Positions 33,270-57,900 of a DNA stretch of 64,000 nucleotides are shown here, in pieces. The first letter of the stretch is position 1. Each line of letters starts with the position of its first letter. The translations under genes and the position numbers were made by a program. Source of the stretch: Pelagomonas calceolata (Eukaryota; Sar; Pelagophyceae; Pelagomonadales; Pelagomonadaceae); the NCBI GenBank assembly GCA_918797485.1, contig CAKKNE010000001.1, positions 4,960,001 through 5,024,000 on the forward strand. The letters run 5' to 3'. Under the pieces are notes generated by a model that saw nothing but the letters and a program-made list of their open reading frames with translations, made no database searches and was not told the origin of the DNA.

Positions 33270-34839
33270 ATGCGCACCGCCCTCCTCCTAGCCCTCATCG
33301 CCGCCAGCGCGCAAGCAATCACGGAGGAAAACTTCGTCGACGGCCAGTGCGCCACCGCCGACGGCGCCGACCACTTCCCCTATAAAAGCGAGGCGGGCGA
33401 CCAGTTCGCCGATGTCATAAGCGCCGACTACTCGCTGTTGTGGGAGGTGCAGTACGAGAACGACTACAAGATCGTCAAGAACACGAAGACGGGCGACGTC
33501 CACGTGCTGCACCAGTGCGGCCTCAATCCTCCGTCAAATGAAGACCTCCCGGCCTACGCCAAGGACGGGACGATGGTGGAAGTGCCGCTCACCAAGATCG
33601 CCACCACATCAACGACCTACCTCGCCTTCCTCGAGATGCTCGGCGAGCGCAAGGCACTCAAGTCGTACCAGTCGTCCTTCCAGTACGTGTCGTCGCCCTG
33701 TTTACGGAAGATGCACCGCGACGGCCTCATCGAGGAGAAGGACGCATTCGCGGACCCTCCCAAAATACCTGACTTGGAAGCTTTGGGCGTGCAGGCGACG
33801 TTCGCGTCGAGCTTCGGTGCGCGGTCCGCGTCGGAACCATTGCGTCGATGGCGTATGAGCTGTACACACAGGCGCCGACGAGTACAAGTTCATCCAGATG
33901 ACGGACATCGACGAGCAGCAGCCCGACGCGGTGCTCAAGGGCGCCGAGTACGTCGAGTACCTGGGGCTCTACTTCAACCGCGAGAAGGAGGCGTCGGCGG
34001 CCATCCAGCACATCGTCGACAACTACATGTGCACGCAGAAGGCCGTCGAAGGTGTTGTGAAAGAAAACGAGCCCGTGCCCGTGCTCTGGGCGCAGTACTG
34101 GTCGGGGGCGACGTGCGGCGACGGGTCGTCCGGGGGCTGGTCCGTCGCGTCGGCGAACACGTGGTACGCCGAATTGATTAGAGCGGCGGGCGGGTCCCTT
34201 ATTATTCCAGACGTCGAGGCGGCCTGCGAGTCGTGGGGCGCGCCGTATCTCTCGACGGCGCAGCTCCTCGAGGTCGGCAAGGACGCCGCGGTCATGATCT
34301 CGCCGGGCCCCTTCCCCGAGGACCAGGACGTGTCCGCCCTGAAGGCATGGAGCTGTGTGGAAATCAAGTTTCGGGCGCCCCACGCCATCGACGCTATGTG
34401 CTTTGCGTAGCTACGTCGGCTCGATGGCGTGGATAACATAGCTCACTGGTTGATTTCCACACAGGCGTGGGAGAACGGCCGCGTCTTCGACAACCAGGGC
34501 CCGAACGGCGCGAACGACTGGTTCGAGCGTAGAGTGGTCGAGCCCGACGCCATGCTCCAGGACCTCGCGCTGGCCTTCTACCCCGACGACGGGCCCACCG
34601 CCACGTTCTCGCGCAAGTGGCTCCGCGACGTCCGCGCGGGCGAGCCGATCGGCGGCGTGTCGGACGAGGATCTAGATACCGCGTGCCCCGACATCGACGC
34701 ACCCTACGAGTTCTCCTCTACAGACATGTGCGCCCAGATCTCCACGGACGACCCGGAGCAGCCTCCGGACGAGTCGGACGCCGCGGCCCGCGCGGTGCTC
34801 GCCGCGGCGGCGGCAGCGGCGGCCGTCCTCGTGCTCTAG
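33270..34839 (+). CDS. Secreted substrate-binding-protein-like gene 1, interrupted by two introners, 464 aa when spliced
   Basis: ATG at 33270; signal peptide MRTALLLALIAASAQA. Exons 33270-33816, 33872-34344 and 34465-34839 total 1395 nt. The fold and spacing resemble TroA/BtuF-type binding proteins (ISADYSLLWEVQYENDYKIV; SWGAPYLSTAQLLEVGKDA; WENGRVFDNQGP after splicing). The C-terminus ends in a hydrophobic Ala/Val run, a membrane or GPI-type anchor signal. Without splicing the frame breaks at both insertions. The intronless paralogue at 35845 gives the joins: residues at the second join read LKAW-ENGR in both. Ligand unknown. Extracellular or endomembrane location is inferred from the leader. 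Confidence 0.85.
33817..33871 (+). mobile_element. Decayed introner forming a 55-nt intron (E1)
   Basis: Intron from GTGCGCGG at 33817 to GTACACACAG at 33871. It retains GCGTCGATGGCGT from the introner core and the CACACAG acceptor, but lacks the left terminal repeat. Phase 1; removing it gives SFGADEYK in line with the paralogue at 35845. Confidence 0.75.
34353..34464 (+). mobile_element. Intact introner in binding-protein-like gene 1 (E2)
   Basis: 112 bp, left CTGTGTGGAAATCAAG, right GGTTGATTTCCACACAG. Internal inverted repeat CCACGCCATCGA (34380-34391) / TCGATGGCGTGG (34421-34432). Flanks GCATGGAG (34345-34352) and GCGTGGGA (34465-34472) are a diverged 8-bp duplication. The intron is 34345-34464 with a GC donor (GCATGG) and is phase 0. 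Confidence 0.88.
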
Positions 34840-34988
34840 GACCACTCGGGCGGCGGCCGGCGCCCGCGCGCCCCTCTCCGGGCCCGCGCGCGCACTTCCT
34901 CAACGCAGACGAAGCTGCGATCTCCCCTCCCCCAGTCTGTTTGTGTCTGCTTGTAACAGCACATTTACGTTATTAGTCTCACAGCACT

Positions 34989-35534
34989 CTACTCCACGGG
35001 CCGCGCCACGCGTATTTCGCGCCACATCAAGTAATTCCAAATATTCTCGTCAGCACTCGCGAAGCGGTCGCTCGCGGCGTCGCCGTTTGTGCCAAGACGT
35101 ACGCGAAGAGAACCCTCGTTCTCGTATGCGACGTGGAGCCGCTGGCGTGCACGCGCGTGAGCGTCGCCGCCCTCGATCGCGTCGCCGGTGCGGAGGCAGA
35201 CGCGGAAACGGTGTTGTGGACATATGAGCACGTCGTCGTCTTCCAGATCTCCCACGCCAAGGTTGCCACCCGCATGGTAGCAGATACTGTCGACGCAGGC
35301 GAGGCCGCCGCCGTTGAGACGCACGACGGAGACGTAGCGGCCGCCGCAGCTCGCGTGCAGGCGGTCGCCCGGCTTTTGCGTTGGCGCGCGGTCGAGGACG
35401 AATTCTGTCGTCGTTGATGGATCGCTGGCATCGGTTATTGCATCGATCTCATCGATGGCATCGTGCTGCTGCTCCTGCTGTGGCTGCTGCTGGCCCTCTG
35501 GCCGTCTCAGTTGCAACAAATCGATGCCTGTCAT
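34989..35534 (-). CDS. Rieske [2Fe-2S] domain protein, 181 aa
   Basis: ATG at 35534. Residues 1-50 are Gln/Asp-rich and disordered. From ~60 a Rieske fold follows: VSVVRLNGGGLACVDSICYHAGGNL holds C-x-H (CYH), and VLICPQHRFRVCLRTGD holds C-x2-H (CPQH), the four cluster ligands. The C-terminal part has NIWNYLMWREIRVARPV. No membrane helix or oxygenase partner domain, so it resembles small soluble Rieske ferredoxin-like electron carriers. It lies between the two paralogous binding-protein-like genes, divergent from the second, with a GCTAG motif copy between. Confidence 0.85.
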   Translation of the reverse strand: MTGIDLLQLRRPEGQQQPQQEQQHDAIDEIDAITDASDPSTTTEFVLDRAPTQKPGDRLHASCGGRYVSVVRLNGGGLACVDSICYHAGGNLGVGDLEDDDVLICPQHRFRVCLRTGDAIEGGDAHARARQRLHVAYENEGSLRVRLGTNGDAASDRFASADENIWNYLMWREIRVARPVE

Positions 35535-35844
35535 TTATTTATTCATGGTTTGATCACTTTTGTACGGTGCACGTATAACATGCAATCATTAGCGGCAATG
35601 GGCCACGCATACGACTGCCCCCTGGCTCGGCTTGCTAGTGTCTTACCGCTAGCCCGAAATTCCGAACGGGTCGCTCGTACCGTTGAAGGATCAAATTCCG
35701 CGCGACAAGAGTCCTTCAAGCCACACCCGCACCTCGCCTCAGCTCTCGCAGCGAGCGCTGAATACAGAACTTCAGCGCTTATTGAGACGACGCGAGGGCC
35801 ATTGTGTGCAGCAACAGCTGCCCTTCCACGCGGCAACATCAACG
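35535..35844. promoter_or_regulatory. Divergent promoter region with recurrent motif (copy e)
   Basis: 310 bp. GCTAGTGTCTTACCGCTAGC at 35634-35653 is the shortest copy (20 bp, only two bases between the TTAC core and GCTAGC). Distances: 100 bp to the Rieske ATG, 192 bp to the binding-protein-like ATG. Confidence 0.55.
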
Positions 35845-37398
35845 ATGGCCCGCCGCGCAGCCCTGGTGCTCGCAAGCGCCGCCACGGCAAGCGCCGCCAA
35901 CTACGTCGGCGGTCAATGTGCGGTCGGTGTCACTAGCGGCGACCTCTTCCCCGACAAGTGCGTGTACGGCACGCAGTTCACGGCGACGGTCGCCGCGGAC
36001 TATTCATTGCTGTGGGAGGTCGCTTACTACGACTCCTACAAGGTCGTGAAGAACGGCGACGCCGTGCACGCGCTGCACCAATGTGGGGTGGACGCGCCGA
36101 CGAGCGAAGAGCTACCGGCCTACGCGGTGGAGGCGACGCTCGTCGAGGTGCCCGTAACCGCCGTCGCGACGACGTCGTCGACGTACCTCCCGTTCATCGA
36201 GATGCTCGGCGAGCGGCGCGCGCTCAAGGCCTACCAGTCGAGCTTCTACTACGTCTCGTCACCGTGTTTAAGGAAGATGTACCGCGACGGACTCATCGAG
36301 GCCCAGAGTGGGGACTGGCCGAACACAGTGAACCCGGACCTGGAGGCGCTCGGCGTCCAGGCGACGTTCGCGTCGTCGTGGGGCATGGACGAGCACAACG
36401 CGGTCCTGCTGACGGACACGGCCGAACAACAGCCGAACGCGGTCCTCAAAACGGCCGAGTACGTCGAGTATGTTGGTCTGTATTTCAATAGGGAGAAGGA
36501 GGCGGCCGCGGCCATCGAGCACATCGTCGCCAACTGGCTCTGCACGAAGGAGGCCGTTGCTGGCGTCGTGAAGAACAAAGCCCCGGTCAAGGTGCTCTGG
36601 GCCCAGTACTGGGGCAGCGCGACCTGCGGCGGCGAACCGATCGGAGGCTGGTCCGTCGCAAGCGGCAACACGTGGTACTCGGAAATCATCGAAGCCGCGG
36701 GTGGCCAGCTCATCGTGCCCGCCGTCGAGGCGGCCTGCGAGTCGTGGGGTGCGCCCTACCTGTCTACCGAACAGCTCCTCGAGGTCGGCGCGGACGCTGA
36801 CGTGTTCATCTCGCCGGGCCCGTGGGAGGACCAGGACGTGTCCTCCCTGAAAGCCTGGGAAAACGGCCGCGTCTTCGACAACCAGGGCCCGCGCGGCGCG
36901 AATGACTGGTTCGAGCGTCGGGTCGTGGAACCCGATGCCGTTCTGCAGGACCTGGCCGTGGCCTTCTACCCGGACGCGACCGAGCTCGAGGGCCTGTCGC
37001 GCAAGTGGCTCCGCGACGTCGTCGCGGAGGAGCCCGTCGGCGGCGTGTCGGACGAGGACCTGGACGCGGCCTGCCCCGACATCGACGCGCCCTATGAGTT
37101 CTCCTCTACAGACATGTGCGCACGACTAGTTCTTGATAACGATCCCACGCCGACCGAGCCCGCGCCGACGACGGACCAGCAAGCGACGACCGAGGGCTCC
37201 TCGAGCAGCAGCAAGAAGAGCTCCTCGCCGGACGCCGCCTCGGGCGGCATCATAGCCGTGGCCGTCATCGCCAGCGCACTCGTGCTCCTCGTCGTCGGTG
37301 GCCTGTCGTACTACGCCAACCGGCGCCTGCCGCCGCCGGCGAAGGCGCTTCCCGCGGACAACCAACCCGTTGTCACGAAGGCGGCCGAGACGGCGTGA
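35845..37398 (+). CDS. Secreted substrate-binding-protein-like gene 2, intronless paralogue, 517 aa
   Basis: ATG at 35845; signal peptide MARRAALVLASAATASA. It aligns along its whole length with gene 1 at 33270: SADYSLLWEV / AADYSLLWEV, SSPCLRKM.RDGLIE, VEY.GLYFNREKEA, VLWAQYW, SWGAPYLST.QLLEVG, ENGRVFDNQGP, NDWFERRVVEPD. A Ser/Thr-rich stalk precedes one membrane helix (GIIAVAVIASALVLLVVGGL) and a short cytoplasmic tail, so it is a type I membrane protein with the binding-protein-like domain outside. No introners. The pair arose by duplication with the Rieske gene now between. Ligand unknown. Confidence 0.85.
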   Translation: MARRAALVLASAATASAANYVGGQCAVGVTSGDLFPDKCVYGTQFTATVAADYSLLWEVAYYDSYKVVKNGDAVHALHQCGVDAPTSEELPAYAVEATLVEVPVTAVATTSSTYLPFIEMLGERRALKAYQSSFYYVSSPCLRKMYRDGLIEAQSGDWPNTVNPDLEALGVQATFASSWGMDEHNAVLLTDTAEQQPNAVLKTAEYVEYVGLYFNREKEAAAAIEHIVANWLCTKEAVAGVVKNKAPVKVLWAQYWGSATCGGEPIGGWSVASGNTWYSEIIEAAGGQLIVPAVEAACESWGAPYLSTEQLLEVGADADVFISPGPWEDQDVSSLKAWENGRVFDNQGPRGANDWFERRVVEPDAVLQDLAVAFYPDATELEGLSRKWLRDVVAEEPVGGVSDEDLDAACPDIDAPYEFSSTDMCARLVLDNDPTPTEPAPTTDQQATTEGSSSSSKKSSSPDAASGGIIAVAVIASALVLLVVGGLSYYANRRLPPPAKALPADNQPVVTKAAETA

Positions 37399-37494
37399 GC
37401 AACGCCGTCCCGAGGAGGCAACGCGCCCGCGCGCCCCGGGGCCCGCGCGCGCTAACGCATATGATATTTATTCATATTACTACCCGCGGGATGT

Positions 37495-38451
37495 TTAGCC
37501 CTCGAGAAGGTCGTCGTCGCCCTCGACGGGCGACCCGGCTAGGATCGCGTCGATGTCGGCGCCGCCCGCCAATATCGCGTCGTCCGCGTCGGCCGCGCCG
37601 ACGCCGCCCGCGAGGAGCGCCTCCACTTCGTCCGCGACGAGCGGATCGATCGGATTCTCGGCCTCGAACGCCTCGCCGCCCTCAAACACGGGCGACGCGG
37701 CGACGTCGCCATCGAAGCCCTCGTCGTCGTCGGGGTCGCGCCGCAGCGCCGCGGCGGCGGCGCGGTCGATCGCAGGGGTCGGCGACTCCGGCGACGCGGG
37801 TCCCATGAGCCGTTCGAGCAGGTCGACGCTGTCGCGGGCGGCCCGCGCGACGCGCTTGGACCGGGCCCGCCGCGTGGCGCGGTCCTCGCGACCGCGCAGC
37901 GGCGACGCTGGTGGCCGATCGTTTCGTCGGCCGAACGCCACGTCCGGCGGGTCCGGCGGCCTGAGCGGTCGCCGCGCCCGCGCCGCGAGGCCGCACGCCG
38001 AGCCGAGGGTCGCCGCCGCGCGGCGGGCCTCGCGGCCGCCGCCGTCGTAGACCGCGCGCAGGTCCGCGTCGCTCGCGTCAGTGACGTAGGCGCAGACCCG
38101 TCGCAGCGCCGCGGCGAAGTCGGCGAAGCCCGGTGGCGGGGCGCCCGCCGCGGCCGGCTTTTTGCGGGACGCTCGCCGCGGCGGGACGCTCGCAGGCCGC
38201 GGCCGCGCCGGCGAGGCGGCGCGCGCGGCGACGAGGGCGCGGTGCCGCGCGCGCTCCCGCGCCGCGGCCTCCGTTTTCTGGGCGATGCGCTGCGCCCGCT
38301 GCCGGTCCTTGGCGCGCTGTTGTGCACGGTCGCGCTTCGAGCTCCGCAGCGCGTCGGGCTGCCCGTAGGGGCTCAGCCAGAGGTCCCGCTCGCGCGAGCT
38401 CGCGCGCGCCCTTGCGGTCCTTTTTTCCGTCTTACGCAAGTAGGAGGACAT
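37495..38451 (-). CDS. Arg/Ala-rich basic hypothetical protein, 318 aa
   Basis: Start placed at the ATG at 38451 (MSSYLRKTEKR); an upstream in-frame ATG near 38697 would add a leader-like segment and cannot be excluded. Residues 1-90 are a strongly basic helix (RDRAQQRAKDRQRAQRIAQK). The middle is Pro/Arg-rich, with one more ordered stretch FADFAAALRRVCAYVTDASD. The last ~40 residues repeat DA(I/D)LAGG-type acidic units. No family recognised. The whole gene is very GC-rich, and coding status rests on frame length and consistent bias. Confidence 0.6.
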   Translation of the reverse strand: MSSYLRKTEKRTARARASSRERDLWLSPYGQPDALRSSKRDRAQQRAKDRQRAQRIAQKTEAAARERARHRALVAARAASPARPRPASVPPRRASRKKPAAAGAPPPGFADFAAALRRVCAYVTDASDADLRAVYDGGGREARRAAATLGSACGLAARARRPLRPPDPPDVAFGRRNDRPPASPLRGREDRATRRARSKRVARAARDSVDLLERLMGPASPESPTPAIDRAAAAALRRDPDDDEGFDGDVAASPVFEGGEAFEAENPIDPLVADEVEALLAGGVGAADADDAILAGGADIDAILAGSPVEGDDDLLEG

Positions 38452-38982
38452 TTGGTCACGATCGCCGCGGCTCCTTAAAGCATATGGATTCGTGTTGCCA
38501 GCGTGTTTGACGACAAGGGCAGCGCTTGCGCTGCCCTCGAGAGGCTGCGCGGGCCGGAGTGGTCGGAAACGAACACCAACCAAAGATGCAGCAATGCCAG
38601 TTGCAAAACTCGCTGCTGCAAAGCTTATTGAGAGACGCTTGTAGATGCTGGAGACGCTCGCAGCGCGACGTGACGGAATGGCGGAAGAGCCCTCCATGAC
38701 GCCTCGCCAGCTCTCTGCCGTCGCGCGAGCCCGTGCTGGGCGACGTACGGCCGACTTCGGGGTGCAGAAACACTCTAGCAACTCTCCGTGCAGCGGCGCT
38801 CTGCGTCGAGTGGCTGGCGCTCTATACCGGGTGGAGCGACCTTGCTCGCACGCTGCCACGCCCAGCGGTCCCTACTCATACGTTTTGGACGTGTGGGGCA
38901 GCCTTTCTCCCGCGCCCGGGCCGCACCAGCTCCGACACTGGGCTGCCACCCCTGACGCCCCCGACCACACTGCGACGAAAGC
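38452..38982. promoter_or_regulatory. Divergent intergenic region
   Basis: 531 bp between the basic protein gene and the IFT25-like gene. Open frames here lack ATG starts or are antisense shadows. If the upstream ATG at ~38697 is used by the minus gene the region shrinks to ~285 bp. The recurrent motif is absent. Confidence 0.35.
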
Positions 38983-39690
38983 ATGGAGGCCCCGCGCACC
39001 TTCGTCCCCTTCAACGACTACGGCAAGGCCCTGAACCGGTCGGCGTCGCCGCAGCGCTACCCGCGGCCGACGAAGCCCCTCGCCGCGCGGCCGCGGCGCC
39101 TGTCCTTCGGCGCCGCCGAGCGCGCGCCGACCACCACACCATGCGCGCCGCCGCCGGAGAGCCCGACGATGTCCACGGAACGGACGCCGGAGAGCCCGAC
39201 GATGTCCACGGAGCGGCTGCCCTGGGACGCACGCCAAGCGCCCGGCGCCGCCGACTCGCCGCCGGCGAGCCCGACGCCGCCGACGCGGCAGCTGTCCGCG
39301 AGCCCGACGACACCGGCCCGGCGCGTCGCCGTGCGCGACATCGGCGCGTCGTGCCACGACGGGCGCCACCCGGCCACGGCCATGTTCGACGGCCAAAAAT
39401 TCTGGGCGACGACGGGCCTCTTCCCCCAGTCCGCGCTCGCGCGCCTGCCGTCGCCGACGCGCCTCTCGTCCCTTTCACTCGACGTGGGGCCGTCCGTGCG
39501 GCAGGTGACCGTGAGCGTCGGCCACGAGGACGCCTTCGAGGACGTCGCCACCGTGACGTTTGAGGGCGGCGGCAACAAGCGCGTTTCACTGGAAAACGTC
39601 CTCGCCCGCGACGTGCGCATCCGCATCGACCGCGCGTCCGGGTCCTTCGCCATCGTCCAGTCCGTCGAGGTCGTCGGCGTGCCCGCGTAA
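38983..39690 (+). CDS. IFT25/HSPB11-like protein with long Pro-rich N-terminus, 235 aa
   Basis: ATG at 38983. Residues 1-110 are low-complexity Ser/Thr/Pro with ESPTMSTER repeated twice in tandem (~58-77). Residues ~115-235 match the galactose-binding-like fold of IFT25: the hallmark MFDGQKFWATTGLFPQ, then LDVGPSVRQVTVSVGHED, and VEVVGVPA at the end. IFT25 binds IFT27 in the intraflagellar transport B complex, so the gene points to a flagellated stage or retained IFT. The ordinary protein is ~145 aa; the extra N-terminus is unusual. Stop codons of this gene and the next are 15 bp apart. Confidence 0.82.
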   Translation: MEAPRTFVPFNDYGKALNRSASPQRYPRPTKPLAARPRRLSFGAAERAPTTTPCAPPPESPTMSTERTPESPTMSTERLPWDARQAPGAADSPPASPTPPTRQLSASPTTPARRVAVRDIGASCHDGRHPATAMFDGQKFWATTGLFPQSALARLPSPTRLSSLSLDVGPSVRQVTVSVGHEDAFEDVATVTFEGGGNKRVSLENVLARDVRIRIDRASGSFAIVQSVEVVGVPA

Positions 39691-39705
39691 TATGTGTTAT
39701 TAATA

Positions 39706-40851: not shown

Positions 40852-41437
40852 TTGCTTTTTGTAGTGTGCAGGGCTGCCTTTCTGTGCGGCTGCGATCGAT
40901 CAGCCGCCGCCTCGTCCGTCCGACACTGGAGCCCTCGAGCTAGGAATCACAGGGCGTCTAAATCTCGGGCGCGATGTCCAAACTATTGATCGTTCGCTTT
41001 ACTGCGCAGCCTCGCGTGCTCTCCAGGCTGCCCAAACTGCGTCTTCTGCCGCGATGCTGGCAATCGCATGCCAAAAACACTCAAAAATGGTCGAAATGCT
41101 ACGGGTTTCGTGCGGCTCGCGATCGCGCGCGATCGTGTGGATGCGTGGGGGCCGGCCGGCCGCCTATACTCGATGGCGTCACCACCCGGACAAAAAGTTC
41201 TTGCCTGCTCGGCGCGGAGGTTGCCGCGACCGCGGTCCGCGCGACTGGGCCCGGCCTAGAGGCCCGGCCTCGACGCCATCGGCGCGTCGCACGACATGGC
41301 GTCGGACATCCGGGCCCGTAGGTAGACGCCGCCGCCGCGCCGTCCAAGGACCAGAAACTAGTATTTGCGAGGCTTACGACCGCCTCGCGAGAGTCCTAAG
41401 AGTCACGGCGCCCGGCCGGCGCCCCACAAGTTCGCGT
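40852..41437. other. Intergenic region between two minus-strand genes
   Basis: 586 bp holding the promoter of the PH-like gene and the 3' flank of the LHC gene. It contains partial matches to the introner core (CTCGATGGCGTCACC at 41169-41183; CTCGACGCCATCGG at 41269-41282) in inverted arrangement but no terminal repeats. No gene is supported. Confidence 0.4.
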
Positions 41438-43482: not shown

Positions 43483-43498
43483 GTACAATAATAGACAC

Positions 43499-45211
43499 TT
43501 AACCACCCTCCGCCGCCAACCCATCACACAACGCCTCCAGCCGCCGCAGCGCCAACGCGAGCCGCTCGGCCGTCGTCCGCGCGTCGAGGACGGGCTGCGC
43601 CTGGCCGCCGACGACGGCCCAGACGGCGTAGCTCAGGCGCGCGGCGCGGCGGTGCGCCGGGTAGCCGCCCGGGGGGGTCGTGTAGCGGCGATTAAATGGG
43701 TCCGGCGGCGCCACGTTGGAAGCGAGCCGCGCTGCGACGGCCGTCAGCGCGAAGTCCGCGGGCCAGTCTCCGTCCGGTGGCAATAGCCCTAGAATTTGAG
43801 ATGGCACGGGCACCTGTGTGTAAATCAACCAGTGTGTCGGGTGCACCCGATAATTCTTCACTAAGTCATTTCTCGGCGAAGACGTGGCCGCTGGCTCTGT
43901 CGAGCGGTGAGAAACCGACACCGCCACGCTATCGAGCAGGCGTCGCGTCGATGGCGTGGAGGTGGACGCGGTGATTCAGGACGAACGCGCCATAAATTTG
44001 ATGTCCACGCTGACGGGCACGGCCGTCGGCGAGACGCTGGACAGCCGCCGCAGGAGCTCGTCGAGCTTCAGCCAGACGTCGCGCTCGCGCTCCGCGAGCA
44101 GCGACGCGTCCGCCGCGTCGGCGGCGTTCCGCGCGTCGGCGTCGACCGACAGCGGCGCCGCGTAGATTCCTTCCAGTCCTTCCCCGTCCCACGCCGTCGC
44201 CGCGGCCACGTCGAACTGGCACACGGGCGCGACGTCGGCCGATTCCGGCGGCGGCAAGAATTCAACTCTTGCAAACGCCTCGTCCTCCAGCAGCGCCGCG
44301 GACCAGCACTCCGGGAACGCGGACGTCCCCCCAAAGTGCGAGAAGGCCTCGCCTGTGTGGGCATCAAATTTCGGGCGCCCCACGCCATCGACGCGATATT
44401 TTCTCCGTAGCTGCGTCTGCTCGATGGCGTGAAAATTCCACACAGCCATCGACCGTCCGGGATTATCCGGATGTCCGCGCGCGCGTAGGGCATGTTCCGC
44501 AGCGCCTTCTCGACCCTGCACCGCGCCAGACCCTGGACCCAGACGGCCCAGCGGTTGTCCGGCTGCTTCTCGTAGCGCGCGACGCGCATGAGCGTGCCGG
44601 TGCGCGGCGCCAAGGACGTCTCGTTCTTCAGATCATAATCAGGGTTGCCGATGTTGTCGCGCCCGCCGGGGAGCTGCACATGCGCGTAGAGCCAGGGCTC
44701 CGGGCCGCGGACGAGTTCCTCGAACATGTGGGTGTACTGCGGCTGCCAGACATTTAGTATGGTCCTGTGTGGAAATCAACATTTGCGGCGCGTTCACGCC
44801 ATCGACGCGATGCCTGCTCGATGGCGTGGCGATGCCGGTTCCCTCACCGCTCGACGGAGCCTGGAATTATCGCGTGCACCCGACGCACTGGTTGATTATC
44901 CACACAGGTATGGGCTGCTGGTGCGGCAATAAATGCATGCTCCATCTACATAACGGCACGTCCTTGATCAACCCGAACTCGTTGGCCGTCGCGACGAGCC
45001 GCGCGTCGCTCGCCGCGGCGTCGCGGAACGTATCCTCGCTCCCGCCGCCGTAAAACGCGCGTTTCAGCGCCTCGATGTCTTCATTCCTTTGCGTGTCCTG
45101 ACCGCCGTAGAGGTCGGCCTGGCGCCGCGTGTGCTGGCGCGACAGCGTCCTGTGGTGCTGCCAGGCTGCCGCACGAATGCTCGCCGACGCGACAGCGATG
45201 AGGCGCAGCAT
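43499..45211 (-). CDS. LON substrate-binding-domain protein with three introners, 417 aa when spliced
   Basis: ATG at 45211 (MLRLIAVASASIRAA, leader-like). Exons on the minus strand: 45211-44916, 44764-44454, 44352-44021, 43813-43499, total 1254 nt, an exact multiple of three. Spliced joins read HQQ-TILNVWQPQY, IIPDG-EAFSHFGG and SPTA-VPVPSQILGLLP. The middle resembles the N-terminal LON domain (PUA-like): HVQLPGGRDNIGNPDYD, TGTLMRVARYEKQPDNRWAVWVQGLARCRV, and a helical C-terminal half. No AAA+ or protease domain follows, so it is a stand-alone LON-domain protein, similar to cereblon-type or bacterial LonN proteins. Possibly plastid or secretory. Every intron is an introner. Confidence 0.85.
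43814..44012 (-). mobile_element. Introner in the LON-domain gene, third intron (E3)
   Basis: Ends on the plus strand: left CTGTGTGTAAATCAACC (one change), right AATTTGATGTCCACGCTG (several changes). A perfect 8-bp target duplication ACGGGCAC lies at 43806-43813 and 44013-44020. The minus-strand intron is 44020-43814 (207 nt) with donor GTGCCC taken from the duplication; phase 0. Inside are GCGTCGGGTGCACCCGATAA and the CGAGCGGTGA segment shared with E7 and E11. Confidence 0.92.
44353..44445 (-). mobile_element. Introner in the LON-domain gene, second intron (E4)
   Basis: Left CTGTGTGGGCATCAAATT, right AAATTCCACACAG. Internal inverted repeat CACGCCATCGA (44381-44391) / TCGATGGCGTG (44421-44431) with a 29-nt loop, the same spacing as in E2, and the same TTTCGGGCGCCCCACGCC context. 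Minus-strand intron 44453-44353 (101 nt), donor GTCGATGG, phase 1. The flanking 8-mers no longer match well. Confidence 0.88.
44765..44907 (-). mobile_element. Introner in the LON-domain gene, first intron (E5)
   Basis: Left CTGTGTGGAAATCAACATT, right TTGATTATCCACACAG. Target duplication GTATGGTC (44757-44764) / GTATGGGC (44908-44915). Internal inverted repeat CACGCCATCGA (44795-44805) / TCGATGGCGTG (44818-44828). Minus-strand intron 44915-44765 (151 nt), GC donor (GCCCAT), phase 2. Its core is inverted relative to E3 in the same gene. Confidence 0.92.
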
Positions 45212-45516
45212 TTGTGCTTATTTTCTGCTGCAGTGCCACACCGCTAATGCTCGCGCAGCCGAACTCTGCTCCCGCTGCTGCTTTGCTGGATGCCTAGTGT
45301 CTTACAGGCCGCTAGCTCCATATCAAGCCAACGCAGCGCTCAAGCGTAGCCCACGGACCCGCCAATGCCGTGCGCAACCACCTCGCCGGGGAAACCCGTA
45401 CGCACCATCAGTTTCGAACAGCGGCTGCTGGCCCTTGTGAAAAAGGCTGCCCCACGAGCGGCGCACCGGGAAGGAGGCACCGGCAGCCCCCAGCCACGCG
45501 ACCAAGGCTCGCAGCC
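45212..45516. promoter_or_regulatory. Divergent promoter region with recurrent motif (copy f)
   Basis: 305 bp. Motif at 45292-45316: CCTAGTGTCTTACAGGCC then GCTAGC. It is 81 bp from the LON-domain ATG and 201 bp from the GAF-protein ATG. Confidence 0.55.
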
Positions 45517-47001: not shown

Positions 47002-47006
47002 GCGCG

Positions 47007-47677: not shown

Positions 47678-47791
47678 TGTGTTTTCTATTTTTTTTTCCT
47701 CGAGGGGCTTTGTCATAATTTTTAGGCATACAAGGTCGTTATGTACATGGTTTGGGGCAGCGCATGCGGCGGGGTCGCGGAACAGCTCCTA

Positions 47792-47818
47792 TTTTATTTT
47801 GTTTTTTTTGGTTTTTTT
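47792..47818. repeat. T-rich tract
   Basis: A run of T with scattered G (TTTTATTTTGTTTTTTTTGG), in the 219-bp convergent space between TRAPPC1 and the type II membrane protein gene. Possibly part of transcript-end signals for the plus strand. Confidence 0.5.
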
Positions 47819-47896
47819 GGCGTTCTCGTCGGTCGCTCTCGGCACGTACATCCGCTTTTCTTGGCGCGGCGACGGCACTGCCCCGAGGTCGTGGAC

Positions 47897-48442: not shown

Positions 48443-48697
48443 CGCTGCCTGCGCGGCACGGTTTACGTTATAAGCGCGACGAACGCGGCCGTCGACGAAA
48501 GGACCAGCGTGGCGACAAGCTCTTTTTGGGGGGGTGCCGCTCGCGCCGACGACGCATCGAGGACGCGCGAAGGCCGAAACGCCGCCGCGCGGCGCGCGAT
48601 GGCTGGCGGTGAAGTTGTGGTGTGTTGCAGCCAAGCAGCCCCCGCGCCCGCTCCGCGACAGAGCCCTACTAGCAGTAAACACAAGAAGGGTCGTTAT

Positions 48698-51600
48698 TCA
48701 GCGAAACCGCGCCAAAAACGTCCGCACCTCCATCGGCCGCAGCGTGAGCGAGGGGTAGGCGAAGGGCGTCCGCGCCGTGAAGGCCCCGTCCTCTGCCGCC
48801 ACCTCTGTCTTCCACGTCAGCCGCGCGGCCGGCGCCGCGTTCGCCGTCAGCGTCGTTTCCACGGCGGACGTGATCGCGAGGCCGGGACGTCTGAAGTAGC
48901 GCGTCAGGTCGATGGTAACAGGTTGGGCCAGGTCGTCCGCCGTCTCCCCGGCCTCGTAGACGTGGGCCAGCCGTAATAACCACTGGCCGTTGTGCGCTTG
49001 GGCGTAGTTCGACGTCAGCGTCACGAGTTTCACGTTCGGCGGCAGTGGCTCGGCCAGGACCGTCCGCGACGGCGTCTTGAACGGCGTCCCGAGACGCGCG
49101 AACGCGAGCGCGGGAGGCTGCTGGACCTCCTCCATCAGCCGGCGCCGCAACGCGCGCGCCCGTTGCACCTCATCAAACACCAGCAGATGTCGACCTCGAA
49201 CCGTCAATCCCGCGCAAAAGCAGCCGCCGTCGCCCTCGTGCCCGTGCGCGCCCATGGCGCCCGGCGCCGCGCGGATGTCGTTGCAGCCGCACATTGTTTC
49301 ATTTAACGGTTCCTGCACGCCCCGGTTGTCGTCCTCCTGGAGGCGGCGGTGGACCATGAACTCGAGCGATCCACTCGCAAGTGACGCGCCGCCCAGGGAC
49401 CTGTGTGGACATCGACCAGTAGCTGTCGCGTCGATGGCGTAGAGGTTGATTTCCACACGGCCAGTGACGTGTCGACAATCACATCGAACTCGACGCAGTC
49501 GTCGTTGATCGACGCGAGGGCGTTCACGGGGTAGTAGTTCCCCGCGACGGGCTCCGAGATCTTGTAGGGCGAAGGGTAGGACGGGCCGCGCTTGTCTCGA
49601 ACGCGTTTCACGGTCTCTCGGCCGTTGCTATCCGTGTAGAAGACGCCCCCCGACGCGACGGCCGTGTCGTACCTCAGGACCACTTCCTTGCCCCAGTTGG
49701 CATCGGGCGCGAGCCAGGGCGTGTCCACGGGAATGGGCCCGGCCGTCCACTCGACCTCCACGTGTGCGTTGTCCTTGCCCAGGCGTATGGTATGAGAAGT
49801 GAACGGCGACCCGCGCAGTCGCACTTCGGCATATACACTTCCGGTTTCGACGGCCATTTGCGGCACAAAGGAAGGATCAAAGCCATACAGCTCCGACGAG
49901 TTCGGCCGGAAGATGTACGCGCCCGACGCCTGCGACGAGCAGGCCGGCTCTAGGTCAGAGAGCGTGTCGGGGTACGGCGTGCAGCCCCCGGTCGACGAGT
50001 TGTACCAGCCCCAGGTCAATTTTAGGGAGGTCGTCGTCCGCGACGCCAAGTTCTCTATCGTTGTAAGTGCCTTCGTGGCCGTGCAGAACGTCAACCGCAA
50101 GAGGCCGTTGTCCACAATTAGGTTATCACCGTCCCGCGTCACTGTGATGGATGATGACGGCTCGGAAGCGCCGGGCCCGCACGCCGCCGTCGCGGCGCCC
50201 GTCGCTTTTATTGGCAGAGATACGGCGAGGACCGCCGTCGCCTCGTTCGTGAGCGCGGCGTCGGCCGCCCTATACTCTTCCTTCGTGAGATTGAACGAAT
50301 TGAGGTAGAGCCGCGGCAGTTCCCTTGTTCTTTGATCCAATGCCAGAATCTGGGAGGCGAGGGCCTTTCCGGAAGCGTCCTTGCAGCGCCACGGGCCGTC
50401 ACTCACGATAGGTACCCGCAAAACATGATCAACGTCCTGGCCGAGCGGGCTGAAGGCCGCCACTGAGAACCCGTGATGCGTAGCGGAACAGGTCGACGCG
50501 TTCAAACCTGTGTGGAAATCAACCAATGCGTCGGGTGCAATCGGCGATGACGCGGCCGTGCTGGCCCCGTTGAGCGGTGAAGAACCGGCATCGCCACGCC
50601 ATCGAGCAGGGAAACGCGCTGTAAAATTTTGATTTCCACGCAGGTTCAAACAGGACATGGGCCCGCTATTGCAGTTGCAGTGGTCAAACGCCTCGCGTCC
50701 GACGCCGAGCAGCCGACCAAAGGCCACCGCCACACCAGCTTCCGCTTCTAGAGCTGACTCCGTGATCCTTTGGGCATAATCATCCGTAACATCTTGCCGC
50801 TCCGTGCCCGACATGCCGTCGTGGTGCGTGGCCACGCCGACCGTGCCCTCGAGAGCGTCGGTCCAGGAGTCGCCGACGACGGGCTCCTTCTTGTAGGTCG
50901 GTCGATTCACATCTTTCTTGGACGTGTTCGTGACGACCTCCAGTAACCGCGCCGATTCTAAATAGGAAGTGGCGAACCGGACCTGCCTTTTCAACGCCGG
51001 CCGCGACGTGAAGTAGCCGCTCCAGTAGTTGTGCGCGTTGTCCGCCAGGGGCATGATGTCATCTTGTCTTAGTTCATAGGTCACGGACCTATTACGATGC
51101 TTCAAATCCGTATACAGGGTAGGTGTGGAATAAAAGGCATTCACAGAACCATTCAAATTCACATAATGGATCAGCTTGTCCAAATTCCTATACCATCGAT
51201 CGGCGTTTTGATATTGAAAGTCCGTGCCGCAGGCCCACAATTGATGTAGTGTTAAAGTATGCTTCGCCTGCTCCCTGGCATCTTGCACAAACTTGTCGAC
51301 CCACTGGTCGACGTTGTAGTCGTGTCTTGAAGGGTCGTCGTTCACTTGTTGCGTCTCGTCGTCGAAATTCAGCCACGTACTGTAGCCGCCCTGCCCCGTG
51401 CCGTACAAATCCCCCGCGAAGACGTCCGCGCTCGAACCTAGGGACTTGCTGCCGCGCCAGACCCACTCGAAGCCGCCCGTCGGCGGTTTTACGGACTGTT
51501 TTCTTCCATACCTCATTTCTCGGTCCTGGTAGTCCATGCGCCCCCAAAATAACGACGTCATGCCCGCCTCCGCCCCTAACAACCAGGCCTGCGTGTTCGT

Positions 51601-52236
51601 GTGCCCGAAGGGGTCGATCTGCCACGTGCCTTTTGGGTTCGCTTGAGCACCAAAGGTCTTGAAGAGCCACTGGTGGCCTCTTGTGGTTTGATCGACCATC
51701 GCCGTCCAGAGCGGACTCGCCTCGTCGTGCATGCACCAGCCCCCGTTGATGAACTCGAGCTGCTTGTTGCGTACGAGGGATTTGGCTCTACTTCTCTTAA
51801 AGTCATCAGCTTGCTCCCACCACCGGGCAAAAAACGCCGTCTCGACATAGATGAATTTCCGATTCGCATCCTGCGCGAGCTGCTCCGTCAAGGTATCGAT
51901 GATCCAGTAGACCTCCCTACTAAAATACTGGTCCACAGTAACCTGCCAGCCCGTGTCGTCGTGCGAATGCGGCACGAGGTGGACGTTGATCTTGCCTTCG
52001 ACGGGTCCTCCCTTCGTGTTATATACTCTGTTTGTAGGTGGCGTGTATGGTGGTGCTGTGGTGCGATCGCCGGTCGACCAGAAGGCGTACGAGGGGGCGC
52101 GGTCGCCTAGTTTACCGGAATCCGTGACGGCGAGCTCTTCCTGGGCTAATCCCGCAATCACGTGGCCGCTGGCGTCGTGGCGGCCGTTCGCGGCCGCGCG
52201 CCCGATCGCGGCGACGGCGACGAGGGAGCGCAGCAT
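48698..52236 (-). CDS. Lysosomal-type alpha-mannosidase (GH38), two introners, 1108 aa when spliced
   Basis: ATG at 52236; signal peptide MLRSLVAVAAIGRAAANG. Exons on the minus strand: 52236-50652, 50507-49469, 49400-48698 (3327 nt, a multiple of three). GH38 hallmarks: VHLVPHSHDDTGW (~83-95; zinc ligands His and Asp), FFARWWEQ, GTWQIDPFGHTNTQAWLL with nucleophile Asp (~206), HHDGMSGTERQDVTDDY. After splicing the C-terminal beta domains continue through [37 protein letters not shown] to the end. It cleaves alpha-mannose from N-glycans in lysosome or vacuole. Both introns are introners; length fits the family (~1000-1100). Confidence 0.93.
49401..49460 (-). mobile_element. Short introner in alpha-mannosidase, second intron (E6)
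   Basis: 60 bp: left CTGTGTGGACATCGACC, right GGTTGATTTCCACACGG. Target duplication CCAGGGAC (49393-49400) / CCAGTGAC (49461-49468). It has only one arm of the internal repeat (GCGTCGATGGCGTAG), so it looks like an internal deletion. Minus-strand intron 49468-49401 (68 nt), donor GTCACT, phase 2. Confidence 0.92.
50508..50643 (-). mobile_element. Introner in alpha-mannosidase, first intron (E7)
   Basis: Left CTGTGTGGAAATCAACC, right TTTTGATTTCCACGCAG. Perfect 8-bp target duplication GTTCAAAC (50500-50507 and 50644-50651). Minus-strand intron 50651-50508 (144 nt), donor GTTTGA, phase 1. Being a multiple of three with no stop, it would be read through in frame if unspliced, adding 48 foreign residues. 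Confidence 0.94.
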
Positions 52237-52391
52237 GGCCTTGGTGTTATGATGCCGCTGCTCGCTCGGGACCAAATGTAAGCTTAGAAATGCGTTGCGC
52301 GGTCACGCTCAGCAGCTATGCAGTTACTGAATCGATACTTTAGCCCACGAATGCCCGCGTTTAAGCCCGCAGTTCCGAGCTCTCGAAGCTT

Positions 52392-52415
52392 GCTAGTGTC
52401 TTACATGCCGCTAGC
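52392..52415. promoter_or_regulatory. Recurrent GCTAG promoter motif (copy h)
   Basis: GCTAGTGTCTTACATGCC then GCTAGC, in the 272-bp divergent region between alpha-mannosidase (156 bp to ATG) and the LURP-one-related gene (94 bp to ATG). Confidence 0.6.
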
Positions 52416-52508
52416 TTCGCTCTCGCGTGATTTGCCCTGGACGGCACACAGACATCTCCTGCTATCCGCAAGCTGCCAGTACCTCGACGATCAACAGCTT
52501 TTGCCGCC

Positions 52509-53339
52509 ATGAAAGTCTCGGCTGCATTGCTGGCCGTGCAATGCACAGCAATGGTCTTCTCGGATTTCAACCCTTTAGGACCTAAGCTCAAGTCGCAGAA
52601 CCCACCAAAATACGCCTTGACGGCGCCGACGACGAGCACGCAGGGCTACGCAGTCCGCGAGAAGATGCTGTCCATCTCCGGCGAAGATTTCTACGTCGAG
52701 CGGGAAGGCGGCGGGAGAGCGTTTGATATTGTGGGAAGCAACAAGGTGCCGTTCGGCGTCGGGGGCTTCGTGCTCGACAAGATGGAATTGAGGGCTGGTG
52801 GAAAACTCTGCGGCAGCATCGAGCGGCGAGCCGTCGCCATGGCCACGGCGTATGATATCTATCTCAAAGGAGACTGCATCGCGAAGATTGAAAAAGATAT
52901 CGTCTCGCTGACGCCGTCGTACAAATTCTTCTACGAGGCGGGGAACTGTGCGCAAATCAACCCCCGATAATTCTTTGAACCCACACTGCCACGCCGTCGA
53001 GAAGCGCCGCGACGTTTGATTTATGCACAGGCGGAAAACAACGGCAACCCCTGCTACCGCGCGACGGGGTCCTTCTCGCAGCGGAAGTACGACATCTACG
53101 CGAGGGACGGGAGCGAAGTAGCGACGATCGGCCGCCAACTGCTGGAGCTCATGCCCGATAAAGCGGACACGTATCACGTCAAATGCGCGGCCGGCGTGGA
53201 TCCGGCGGCGATCATTGCTCTGGCGCTCGTGATCGACGAGGACCACGACGAGAGCGACGCGGCGCGCGACGCGCGGCGGAAAGAGGGCGGCGACGACGGC
53301 GGGGGGATGTTCGGATTTTTCAAAGGGCCGCTCGGGTAA
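52509..53339 (+). CDS. LURP-one-related (Tubby-like fold) protein with one introner, 245 aa when spliced
   Basis: ATG at 52509. Exons 52509-52937 and 53031-53339 (738 nt). LOR features: YAVREKMLSISGEDFYVEREGGGRAFDIVG, FVLDKMELRAGGKLCGSIERR, TAYDIYLKGDCIAKIEKDIVSLTPSYKFFYE, then after the join AENNGNPCYRATGSFSQRKYDIYARDG. This beta-barrel family is related to Tubby and phospholipid scramblases and is linked in plants to pathogen defence. The tail is acidic then GGGMFGFFKGPLG. The intron splits the sheet after a Glu in phase 0. The next gene's stop begins one base after this gene's stop. Confidence 0.87.
52946..53030 (+). mobile_element. Introner in the LURP-one-related gene (E8)
   Basis: Left CTGTGCGCAAATCAACC, right GTTTGATTTATGCACAG, both mutated. 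Target duplication GCGGGGAA (52938-52945) / GCGGAAAA (53031-53038). Core ACGCCGTCGAGAAGCGCCGC is a degraded half of the internal repeat. Intron 52938-53030 (93 nt) with GC donor, phase 0. Confidence 0.88.
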
Positions 53340-53340
53340 G

Positions 53341-54572
53341 CTACAGGTTATTCACTGTACGGTAACCGCGCGCGCCGGGCTGGCTCACCCGCACCGGCTC
53401 CCGCGCGGCGACCTCGTGGCCGACGAGCGTCGCGAGCAGGAGCGCTCCCCCGGCGACGGTCCACGCCGAGGGCACGTCGCCGAAGCGTAGAAAAACCCAC
53501 AGGGGCGCGAGGATGTTCTCGAGGAGGCCAATGAGCGCGCACTCGCTTCCGGACACGTGCTTCGGCGCGTAGGCGATGGCGTAGACATCAATAACGATCA
53601 ACACGGCGTCGCCGAGCGCGAGGCATAGAAACGATCGGGAACGCCAGACGGCCAAGGGCGTGCACGCCAACGTTGCGACAGTAACGTCGGCGGCGTCACA
53701 CGGCATGTACAGGCAGACGATCCCTATGAGAAGCGCTGACGGTAAAGTTGCCAGAAGCAGGTCAGCTCCTGGTGCGTGCAGGCCCGCGTGTCGGTAGACC
53801 GTGTACGTGATCCCTAGCGCGAGGCCCGTTCCGAGCGCGGTGGCGTCAAGCCTGCGGATTGCGTTTCGTGAGTCGCGGCGATGGCGTGGGGAGTAGAGTC
53901 GAAGGCACAATACGCTGATATATGCCACATGCTCCCCAGGATTTCGTCGGAGCTCGCAGGAGATACGTTAATGACCCGCGGCGCCAACACAATACCGATA
54001 GCGATGAAGGAAAACACCAGCGCCCACCGCGTCCGGACCGGTAGCGGGTCGCCTAGCAAGATAAGACCGAGCAGCGCCGACCAGAACGGCGACAGCGCGA
54101 TGAGGAGGAGCGACCGCGCCGGGTCATCCAGTAACAGCACCAGCGTGAAGCCCAGACTGAGGAGGATGTTGCAACATACCGCGGCCAAGAGGTGCGGCAG
54201 GGAAACAAACGCCCGCTTCACCTTCGCGGGATAGACGGCGGCGACCAGCGTGAGCAGTAAGGCGACGCCAAAGTACTTGGCGGAGACGACCGCAGTCGTG
54301 CTCGCACCAACAGCATGCATCGAGCGCAAAAGCATCGAATCGGGACTCACGCAGATGACGCCGAGGAACGCGAGGAAGAGCCCCCACGTGCGCGACGGCG
54401 GCGACTCTGGGGTGTCCGCCGCGCGGCGCCGGAAGCTTTCGCGATGGCGCGCGAACGCGGACATGATCGACTCGTGCTGCTGGAGTGAGTCGGCGGTCGC
54501 TGTGGTGGCGAAAGGTACCGGATCGTATTTAACCGGCGTTTGGTTGATCGAGCTCCTCTCCGGCGTCGCCAT
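53341..54572 (-). CDS. EamA/DMT-family transporter 2, one decayed introner, 384 aa when spliced
   Basis: ATG at 54572. Exons 54572-53929 and 53851-53341 (1155 nt, a multiple of three); the join reads GSM-LDATALGTG. An ~60-residue hydrophilic N-terminus precedes about ten membrane helices. EamA features: WGLFLAFLGVICVSPDSMLLR, LIALSPFWSALLGLILLGD in the first half, CALIGLLENILAPLWVFLRFGD in the second. Transport substrate unknown; DMT proteins export metabolites or exchange nucleotide sugars. Its start lies 43 bp from a small upstream ORF, so its promoter must overlap that stretch. Confidence 0.87.
53852..53928 (-). mobile_element. Strongly decayed introner in EamA transporter 2 (E9)
   Basis: 77-nt minus-strand intron from GTGGCATATATCAG to CAATCCGCAG, phase 2. 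It keeps CCACGCCATCGCCGCGAC, close to the introner core, and faint left-end similarity. Target duplication not visible. It is recognised by core sequence and by the frame it restores. Confidence 0.65.
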
Positions 54573-54615
54573 CGCGCACTATCCCTCAATTATTTCCCTT
54601 AAAGGGAGAGAGTAC

Positions 54616-54762
54616 TTAAGCGGTCACGTTCCCCTTATAACTCCCAAAAAACATCGCATTAAACGCCTGCAGGTTCTTGGACCACTGCCAGTCGGGGAAT
54701 AAGATTGATAGGGCTAGCACCAACCCAAAACACAGTAAGTGCTGGTCCGTAAATTCAATCAT
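54616..54762 (-). CDS. Possible small membrane protein, 48 aa
   Basis: ATG at 54762 (MIEFTDQHLLCFGLVLALSI), TAA at 54616-54618. One hydrophobic helix (LLCFGLVLALSILF), then WQWSKNLQAFNAMFFGSYKG. It lies alone between the ABCA gene and EamA transporter 2, all on the minus strand. Its composition is much less GC3-rich than neighbours, which weakens the call, but the sequence looks protein-like and could be a subunit of an ER or mitochondrial complex. Confidence 0.4.
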   Translation of the reverse strand: MIEFTDQHLLCFGLVLALSILFPDWQWSKNLQAFNAMFFGSYKGNVTA

Positions 54763-54947
54763 GGTGAATATCCGTTTCTTCTGCGGTGACCGCCTGGCTC
54801 GGCCGCGCGCGTATGACTCTAGCGAGAAACCCGTTTTGTGCACCCACGCTTTATCATATATATATGTATGCGCGTACATATAGGAAGATTCCAGTAAACA
54901 ACTTACTTCTTCAAAACGACGACGCGAGATATATGTACAAAACCCAA

Positions 54948-57900
54948 CTAGTCCTCCACCTTCGGCTCCTGCAAGCAGCACCTCCCCACACAATTCGTAA
55001 CGGCGGCGAACATGTGGAACAGTAAGGTAAGGGTACAAGTATTGAACCACACAAACCACGACGCCCCAAATATCGACATGAACATGTAGCAGCACATGGC
55101 GCAGCAGCACGTACTGTGGTACTTGCACAATAAACCGTGCGCGAAGTACGAGCACTTGCAGCAGGTCCGCTCCCGGAACTGAAAATTGTCCAGATCATCG
55201 TCGGAATCATCCCCCAAGTCTTGAGCTACTTGCACCGAGCGATTATGTGCGTCCCTCGCCTCGTGCTCGCCGCCCTCGCCACTGACAATGCGTATGAACA
55301 CTTTTTCGAGCGACGCCTGGACGACGGAGAACTCCGCAACCTTCAAAGACTTGCGTGTACTCTCGTCAAAGGCCTGGAACGCGTCAGCTAATAGATCCGC
55401 GGACTTCTCTGACGACTTCGACAGTTCATACGTTAAAGTGCCGGCATCTGCGGCGGCTAGAGTCGCGCCGAAGCGCTCCTTGACGAATGCTGAGACGCCC
55501 TCCAACGCGTCGTCCTCGATCTTCACGACCAACTCGTAGCCCGACGCGTAGCGCTGCTTGAGGTGGTCGGACGTCCCCAAACATCTTAACTGCCCCTGGA
55601 CCATGATCCCGATGCGGTCGCAGAGGAAGTCGGCCTCGACCATGCTATGCGTCGTTAAAACCACAGCTCTTCCAGCCATCGTCGCCTTGATCAGGTTCCA
55701 CAAATTCCGTTGCGAGACGGGGTCCAACCCCGCGGACGGCTCATCCAGTAACACGATCTGCGGGTCGCCGATCAGCGCGCACGCGCCTGTGTGGAAACCA
55801 ACCAGTGAGTTAGGTTATCCCACGCCATCGAGCCAACGCGGTCACGGGAACAACGTCGCGTCGATGGCGTGGAGCTCCACGCCATCGAGCAGACGCGGCC
55901 ACGGGGACGACGTCGTGGTGCGCCCGAAATTTGATTTCCACACAGACAAGCGCCGCAGAGCTTGCGCTTCATGCCCCCCGACAGGCGCCCGGCGGGCTTG
56001 TCCGCATGGTTCAAAAGCTCCACCCGCGCCAAAGTGGCCGCGACGGCGTCTTCCACTTCATTCTCGAGCATCCTCAGTCTAGCAAACAATCTCAAATGAT
56101 CGGCGCAGCTCAACGCGTCCCACAGCGTGTTGTGCTGGTTCACGACCGCCAAATGTTCGGACGCTTGCGCGAAGGACGAGAGGACCGAGGTCCCCGAGAT
56201 CGCGACGTCGCCCGACGTCGGCTCGACGGCGCGCATGACCGCGGACATGGTCGTCGTCTTGCCCGCGCCGTTCGCACCTAATAACCTGTGTGGAAATCAA
56301 GAGCGCGTCGGGTGCGCCCGACAATTCTTCACGAAGTCATTTCTCGGCGATGACGCGGCCGTGCTGGCTCCGTCGAGCGGTGAGGAACGCAACGTAAGAT
56401 TTTGATTTCCACACAGATAACAACCCAAAGACCTCGCCCGTCCGCACGCCGAAGGTGCACCCGCGCACCGCTTCCACAGCTCTTTGACCGTGCCTTTTGG
56501 GAGGGAAGACCTTGCGCACCTCCCGCACGTTGAGGCCGTACTTGTCTTCCGGAGCGGCGTCCATTTTTATGCGAGGCGCGTAGTAGTTCGGGTCGCTCAA
56601 TTCGTCCAGCAACGCGTCTTTTACAGCTGTTACTTTTGATACTACTTTTTGTACCAGCGACGGATCCGATTCTACGACGTCCTCCTCCTCTTTCTCGCCA
56701 TCTTCGAAGAGCGCCAGCACGCGTTCTCTTTCAGCAAGCACGTCCTCGTCCAGATTGTTCTTACGACGCGTCGAGAAGCGCGTCTTCGTATATGGTAGCG
56801 GCCGCGTATAGAGCCTATCCTTCACGTAGGCTAAACCTTCAAAAACCACGAACTGCGTGATTAAGATAACACACAACACCCAGTACGACGGCCACGTCGG
56901 GTTCCAGGCTTCCGGACTGTTCCCCTTCGTCGCAACAAAAGCCATGCGCATGACTCTTAACAGTGTGAAAACTATAACATTCGGTGGCGAGACGAAGGAT
57001 CCCAACCACGCGAAGGCCGCCATGGCCTCCAACGCGTTCCAGTTGAAGAGCTGCGCCTCCTTGCTACCTGGCATCCAGCCCCCGAACGCCAGTCCCAGGA
57101 AGATGATGAAGACGTCCGGCAGGATCAGCAAGCCTATCACGTAGACCGGCGTGGCACCGACACACACGAACGGATCTAAAAAAGCGTAGGACATCAAGTG
57201 CGAGAACGCGATCACGGCGGGAGGGAATAGCAGGTATATAGCTATGAGCTGAGGCGCGTCGCCGAGCCACGTCCGCCGCTCTCGCGTCGTCGTGATGCAA
57301 TCATCATAATCTCCTAGCGCGAAGCACCATTCTAAATTTGTGAGAGGGAGACCGGTCTGAGGGTTCATCGCGGGGAGCCCCGTCTCTGCCATGATCGTGT
57401 AGTTCTCAGGGAATATTGTACGGGTCTTCGTCTCTTCCACCAAGAAAGAGATGCCGTACCCATAAATAGCGAGTAGGGTGACCGACACGCCAAACACTAA
57501 AGGCACCAAATCCCCGAGTAAGCTCCCGAGCCAGTACGCGCGGTGGTCGAGCCCGCTCACCGCCAGCAGATTACGTAATCTAACTTTCCGTTCCTTCACG
57601 ACGGGCTCCGCGATTAAACCAGGTAGGAGCACCCAGATGCCGAACAGGGGCAACACGAGCAAAATATTCGTCCGGAAGCCCCACTTCCGACCACTCCCAG
57701 CCAGCGAGCCGTCCTTGGCGACTTTGCATAATACGAGAGCGCCGACGGACGGTAATACGGCCAATATGAGTGCGCGGACGCCCACGACGTACTTCGCCGC
57801 CAGTCGAGACAGGGGCCCTAATCTTTTCTCGCCCGTGACGAGGCGGTGGATTTCCATCACCACATACTCAATCCCTTGGAACGGTAATAACACGGTAATG

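Follow-up and report, generated by a model that had tools for sequence, protein, structure and literature searches.

A 64,000-nucleotide stretch of the Pelagomonas calceolata genome (C1:4960001-5024000, called the window below; the genome comprises 32,445,274 bp in 8 contigs) carries a family of short repeated elements inside its protein-coding genes. We have little doubt that these elements are introners, that is, miniature non-autonomous DNA transposons which would share one family of terminal inverted repeats (TIRs) and divide into two interior subfamilies with internal-deletion derivatives. The donor of each predicted intron (GT or GC, abbreviated GY) is given by the first two bases of the target-site duplication (TSD), and the acceptor (CAG) by the end of the element itself, whichever way the element is oriented. 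The first-pass annotation of this stretch had proposed such an element, non-autonomous, flanked by TIRs and TSDs and carrying one of the two splice sites. This proposal is now supported by genome-wide sequence tests and by an empty paralogous site.

Copy number and structure of the elements

Scanning the window for the TIR CTGTGTGGAAATCAA with up to three mismatches gave 17 sites, compared with 0.5 expected by chance. Further copies had been anticipated elsewhere in the genome, and a search for exact matches found 790 on the forward and 772 on the reverse strand, 1,562 altogether, while the reversed sequence used as control gave none. At least eight copies with the shared TIR had been placed inside five genes of the window; this count was borne out, and we located nine two-ended copies, together with a decayed copy at 33817-33871 and a copy that has only one good end, at 20812-20979. 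Copy lengths range from 55 to 206 bp overall and from 60 to 206 bp among 68 two-ended copies, which come from the window and from the first genomic TIR sites listed; the commonest length, 203 bp, represents the full-length form. Exact 8-bp target duplications directly abut the TIRs in 33 of these 68 copies and are found in 30 of 37 young copies.

Full-length copies belong to a single family (A), and another interior type (B) has its TIR in common with A and shows the ends ATTTCGGGCGCCCC and CCAGTGAGTTAGG. Copies with perfect TIRs and a length of only 55–85 bp, 44 of which are present genome-wide, appear to derive from A and B by internal deletion. The 203-bp consensus of family A yielded 906 first-look candidates, the best 40 being 96–98% identical. 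An internal palindrome, CACGCCATCGA...TCGATGGCGTG, occurs in 88 of 110 copies (for example at 43928-43966) and is common to both interior subfamilies, perhaps through shared descent. A conserved RNA stem formed by this palindrome was considered and rejected, as none of 29 variants showed a compensatory change. Viral contigs of IMG/VR were likewise dismissed as carriers of the element: the TIR gave 43 single matches there, none with a partner TIR, which is about the chance level for a 15-mer.

Strict two-ended copies number eight in the 64-kb window and four in 120 kb of sampled genome (twelve 10-kb stretches), where five exact TIR ends were counted. Scaling these samples, with their four copies and five exact ends, by the 1,562 exact ends suggests very roughly 1,000–1,500 well-preserved copies, which would make up only a minor part of the ~7,500 introns annotated. 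Since the density in the window is above average, the earlier statement that the elements account for most of its introns should not be carried over to the genome as a whole.

The elements match introns precisely and lie in coding sequence, which could also be the outcome of introns spreading as RNA via reverse splicing, a route that has been suggested for certain fungal introners. Reverse splicing would, however, yield one orientation and no duplication, whereas inverted terminal repeats, exact 8-bp duplications and the occurrence of both orientations are signs of a DNA transposon. We consider an origin by reverse splicing extremely improbable.

Predicted splice sites in the duplication and in the element

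Each excision ran from base 1 of the target duplication on the sense strand through the CAG at the element's end; each TIR reads ...TTGATTTCCACACAG outward at both ends. The coding strand of every restored empty site was predicted by codon usage, blind to the donor. On the sense strand a GY donor was present at duplication position 1 in 101 of 104 copies in coding context (64 GT, 37 GC). On the antisense strand GY was found in 32 of the 104, and random coding positions gave about 16%. Among the 48 coding copies of a first scan the acceptor was ACACAG in 45 and GCACAG in three. Retention would shift the frame in 36 of these 48 copies and add a stop in eight more. Relative to the gene the interior had the same orientation in 18 copies and the opposite one in 12 (first scan), and among the young copies the numbers were 24 and 12; that both occur is permitted by the symmetry of the TIRs. 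These data indicate that nearly every copy would be spliced from the message as an intron.

An empty site for comparison lies in the window itself. Gene 33270 differs from its tandem paralogue 35845 by insertions of 55 nt and 120 nt exactly at two introner positions, and the spliced 33270 protein aligns to the paralogous protein with no gaps through either junction.

If the copies were ordinary miniature inverted-repeat transposable elements (MITEs) that sit in genes unspliced, they would disrupt their hosts or add peptide sequence to the products. In-frame read-through is possible for four of the 48 coding copies, as it is for the copy at 50508-50651, but in the remaining 44 retention breaks the frame, and the host genes are otherwise intact and contain recognizable domains. 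Unspliced MITEs would predict neither a sense-strand GY in 101 of 104 copies nor the one-sided conservation of CACAG described below, and we assign them hardly any probability.

Unequal decay of the two ends

Assuming that the two TIRs are identical at insertion, their later divergence can be compared end by end. We examined the terminal five TIR bases in the 101 coding copies whose donor is GY, corresponding to 505 positions at each end. Acceptor-end CACAG was changed at none of the 505 positions, the donor end at 15 (Fisher test, p = 5e-5). The end that is conserved is decided by the gene's strand and not by the orientation of the element. One-sided conservation of CACAG is what selection on a 3' splice site would predict, and it is difficult to account for in another way. 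The asymmetry could arise by decay after insertion, by survival of insertions made by copies with one already damaged end, or by both. Comparing how two ends that started out identical have decayed is a test for splicing that works without RNA and is transferable to other introners.

The 15 donor-end changes are distributed unevenly, with ten at T2, five at T4 and none at C1, G3 or G5. This pattern could reflect a transposase constraint on C-N-G-N-G or released pairing with the A residues of the acceptor end.

Target preference and probable loss of insertions

The young copies (n = 37) reside at different loci, and 36 of them are located in coding sequence when 250-bp flanks are considered; the same criterion applied to random positions gave 71%. 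Symmetric TIRs make it possible to read the target preference of the transposase itself from the antisense side of the duplication. On this side R occupies position 7 in 72 of 92 copies and C position 8 in 37 of 92, which corresponds to NYNNNNRN, and RC (GY on the opposite strand) reaches about 31% compared with about 17% at random coding positions.

This bias on the unconfounded side is an argument for explaining the GY donor rule by target-site preference of the transposase alone, without any selection for splicing. With such a preference alone, roughly 31% of insertions should have a GY donor, yet 97% was observed. It must moreover act equally on both sides of an element with symmetric TIRs, whereas the two sides differ and follow the gene's strand; conservation of CACAG at the acceptor end only also requires selection. 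Target preference as the sole cause is in our estimation very unlikely. From the 31% on antisense sides against 97% on sense sides we infer instead that insertions lacking a GY donor disappear, which would concern about two of three genic insertions. If this is true, the survival filter acting on new introns is measurable directly from one genome.

The sequences show insertion of the elements by a transposase activity, with a staggered duplication of 8 bp and a preference for coding sequence. Either terminal repeat can act as the acceptor, whatever the orientation of the element, and the duplication copy upstream of the element would serve as the donor if its sense strand starts with GT or GC. 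Removal of duplication and element would restore the original coding sequence unchanged. Selection would then keep CACAG at the acceptor end while the repeat at the donor end may decay. A more detailed version of this history stands, in our judgement, an even chance of being correct: a recently active, gene-targeting and probably hAT-mobilised introner, whose identical TIRs become functionally different only after insertion, with the host strand picking the acceptor end and about two-thirds of genic insertions, those with no GY donor, being removed by selection.

Several points weigh against the introner interpretation. The evidence for splicing consists of DNA sequence only, and the assignment of the coding strand rests on codon usage trained on the window. 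Three of the 104 sites disagree with the GY rule; two of these are not true TSD pairs and one is a probable strand miscall. A coding criterion with 900-bp flanks is too permissive for gene enrichment, and the enrichment rests on the 37 young copies. The copy at 50508-50651 reads through in frame if it is retained. No transposase with the introner ends was found, an absence of matches that is not proof.

Host genes in the window

Excision had been predicted to give exact reading frames in six genes. Total exon lengths of 1395, 1254, 3327, 738 and 6426 nt are indeed free of stops, while the 1155 nt proposed for the EamA-like gene 53341 are not established: the boundary set for the possible decayed introner intron at 53852..53928 (minus strand) is one of 39 alternative GY...AG excisions opening the frame. 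Of the decayed copies proposed in two genes, the one in gene 33270 is backed by the paralogue, which is empty at this segment. In four window genes (43499, 48698, 52509 and 54948) the predicted excision restores protein domains.

The plus-strand gene 33270 (33270..34839) encodes 464 aa after excision of two introners, as judged from the excision itself and the alignment with its paralogue. The first is the decayed intron at 33817..33871 (+), 55 nt reading GTGCGCGG...ACACACAG, the removal of which restores the frame; the same 55 nt are absent from the paralogue. The second, at 34345..34464 (+), measures 120 nt and consists of an element at 34353-34464 with both TIRs exact and a donor, GCATGGAG, in the left TSD; here too the paralogue is empty. 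The intronless tandem paralogue (35845..37398, +) has an uninterrupted 517-aa frame and serves as empty-site control, supported by alignment and by the direct repeats D3, D5, D7 and D8.

Three introners interrupt the minus-strand gene 43499 (43499..45211), which encodes 417 aa. Its LON substrate-binding domain, residues 90-202, spans the junction at residue 98. A TIR pair and excision define the intron at 43814..44020 (207 nt; family A element at 43814-44012, donor GTGCCCGT, exact TSD). Those at 44353..44453 (101 nt; element 44353-44445, donor GTCGATGG, TSD decayed) and 44765..44915 (151 nt; element 44765-44907, donor GCCCATAC) were delimited by excision; all three are on the minus strand.

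Gene 48698 (48698..52236, minus strand) encodes a GH38 alpha-mannosidase of 1108 aa after excision. A 68-nt intron (49401..49468, minus strand; element 49401-49460, donor GTCACTGG) falls within the GH38 C-terminal domain, residues 660-901, which spans the junction at residue 874. The other intron, of 144 nt (50508..50651, minus strand; element 50508-50643), was recognized by its TIR pair and exact TSD GTTCAAAC. It is the copy with in-frame read-through, and its unspliced product would have an extra segment in a linker region, longer than in jack bean alpha-mannosidase.

The LURP-one-related protein of 245 aa encoded by gene 52509 (52509..53339, +) was identified by its LOR domain, residues 48-210, spanning the junction at residue 143 that is left by a 93-nt intron (52938..53030, +; element 52946-53030, donor GCGGGGAA). 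Gene 54948 (54948..61679, minus strand) encodes an ABCA-type transporter of 2141 aa after excision, and its second ABC_tran match appears in the spliced protein only. Its two introns, both on the minus strand and delimited by excision, measure 167 nt (55787..55953; element 55787-55945, donor GCGCTTGT) and 139 nt (56286..56424; element 56286-56416, donor GTTGTTAT). The single-ended family A copy at 20812..20979, to which no strand was assigned, was detected by the TIR scan and is not assigned to a gene model; it has one exact TIR, and its decayed right end retains only CACACAG.

The mobilising enzyme

The 8-bp duplication, the Y/R target bias of NYNNNNRN and the confinement of donor-end changes to T2 and T4, which leaves C-N-G-N-G termini, point to a hAT-like enzyme. 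Defining features of hAT elements are an 8-bp TSD, an nTnnnnAn target, short TIRs and a TIR that starts with YARNG. The master TIR departs from the last of these, as it starts with CTGTG and has T instead of A as second base; variants with CAGTG or CAGCG occur. Compared with nTnnnnAn, the preference found here is for Y/R rather than strictly for T/A.

A transposase-bearing element with the same ends and 8-bp duplications, as envisaged by the first-pass annotation, did not emerge. The search led to two single-copy hAT-like elements, both with different ends, which were rejected as direct partners by TIR. One of them (C4:4499549-4503199, L075:5050-8700) has a perfect 17-bp TIR, CAGGGCAGCAGAAGGGC (CAGGGCAGCAG...), and the TSD TTGCTCGC. 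It is apparently intact and sits in a MYND-finger-like gene, and its transposase gene seems to be interrupted by a decayed introner at approximately L075:7490-7700. The other (C5:1220521-1223390; L166, L168, L169) shows DUF659, the TIR CTAGGTTGCC (CTAGGTTGCCA-like), the exact TSD ACACTCGG and an 832-aa open frame. Pfam models of MULE, KDZ, P-element RNase H, Merlin/IS1595 and hAT-like RNase H had no match in the genome. For MULE, KDZ, P and Merlin, the other superfamilies with 8-9-bp TSDs, the models were PF10551, PF18758, PF21787 and PF12762, with PF18758 and PF21787 lacking a match in the control genomes as well. RAG-like elements of Aureococcus were dismissed as a source on account of their 5-bp duplications and other ends.

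Other repeats in the window

A 25-bp motif with palindromic ends, TGCTAGTGTSTTACANNCCGCTAGC, was noticed at 5691-5715, 10942-10966, 32947-32971, 35633-35657, 45292-45316, 52391-52415 and 61976-62000 of the window, as well as at the loci L116, L118, L119, L120, L122, L123 and L127. All seven window copies lie in divergent promoter gaps, with the left gene on the minus and the right gene on the plus strand. None of the 17 copies found falls within a predicted coding open reading frame, and shuffles give 0 for the six best. The motif is a candidate bidirectional promoter element. Tandem 99-nt coding repeats (33 residues), apparently ankyrin-like, were seen at 3335-4633 in the minus-strand gene 1484-4654.

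Comparison with known introners

Introners are known, those of the DNA-transposon type are established (PMC9860276), and an intron-length peak near 210 bp has already been published for P. calceolata. PMC9481584 gives an average of 0.45 introns per gene in this alga and describes the peak as typical of the Introner Elements known from Aureococcus. A 203-bp element and its 8-bp duplication add up to 211 nt, compared with this peak of ~210 bp. The family described here is a real introner family for which the evidence is unusually direct. A text search of papers for the TIR sequence string found no occurrence. The bulk origin of introns is a long-standing question, to which the family contributes exact empty sites, young copies that are nearly identical and a selection signature that depends on the strand. 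A single alga, small and abundant in the ocean, thereby lets one measure how introns are gained, how they are spliced regardless of orientation and how purifying selection acts on new ones.

The Introner Elements of Aureococcus anophagefferens (Huff, Zilberman and Roy 2016; via PMC7789003, PMC9481584), compared by description only and as summarized in these sources, likewise belong to a pelagophyte and have direct repeats, constant-length TIRs and introns of ~210 bp, and they have been interpreted as non-autonomous DNA transposons. The Pelagomonas family differs from them in its GC donors (37 of 101); high GC-donor fractions, within a range of 0–50%, are reported for some introner families (PMC9860276). 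Introner family 4 of Aureococcus sp. TARA_AOS_82_MAG_00129 (Gozashti et al. 2022, PMC9860276 Fig. 2F) is also from a pelagophyte, of the DNA-transposon type and accompanied by an 8-bp TSD. Both splice sites are part of that element, and the message gains 12 nt, whereas in Pelagomonas the TSD supplies the donor and the message would gain nothing, in agreement with the empty paralogue 35845, which indicates no net addition at either site. The splice logic is the same in the introner of Symbiodinium microadriaticum (PMC9860276 Fig. 2B), with TIRs, an acceptor in the element and a donor from the TSD; its TSD measures 4 bp, in contrast to 8 bp in Pelagomonas, and we claim no relationship between the two. 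With MITEs of the hAT superfamily the Pelagomonas elements have in common the 8-bp TSD, short TIRs and C-N-G-N-G ends, and their weak NYNNNNRN bias resembles nTnnnnAn.

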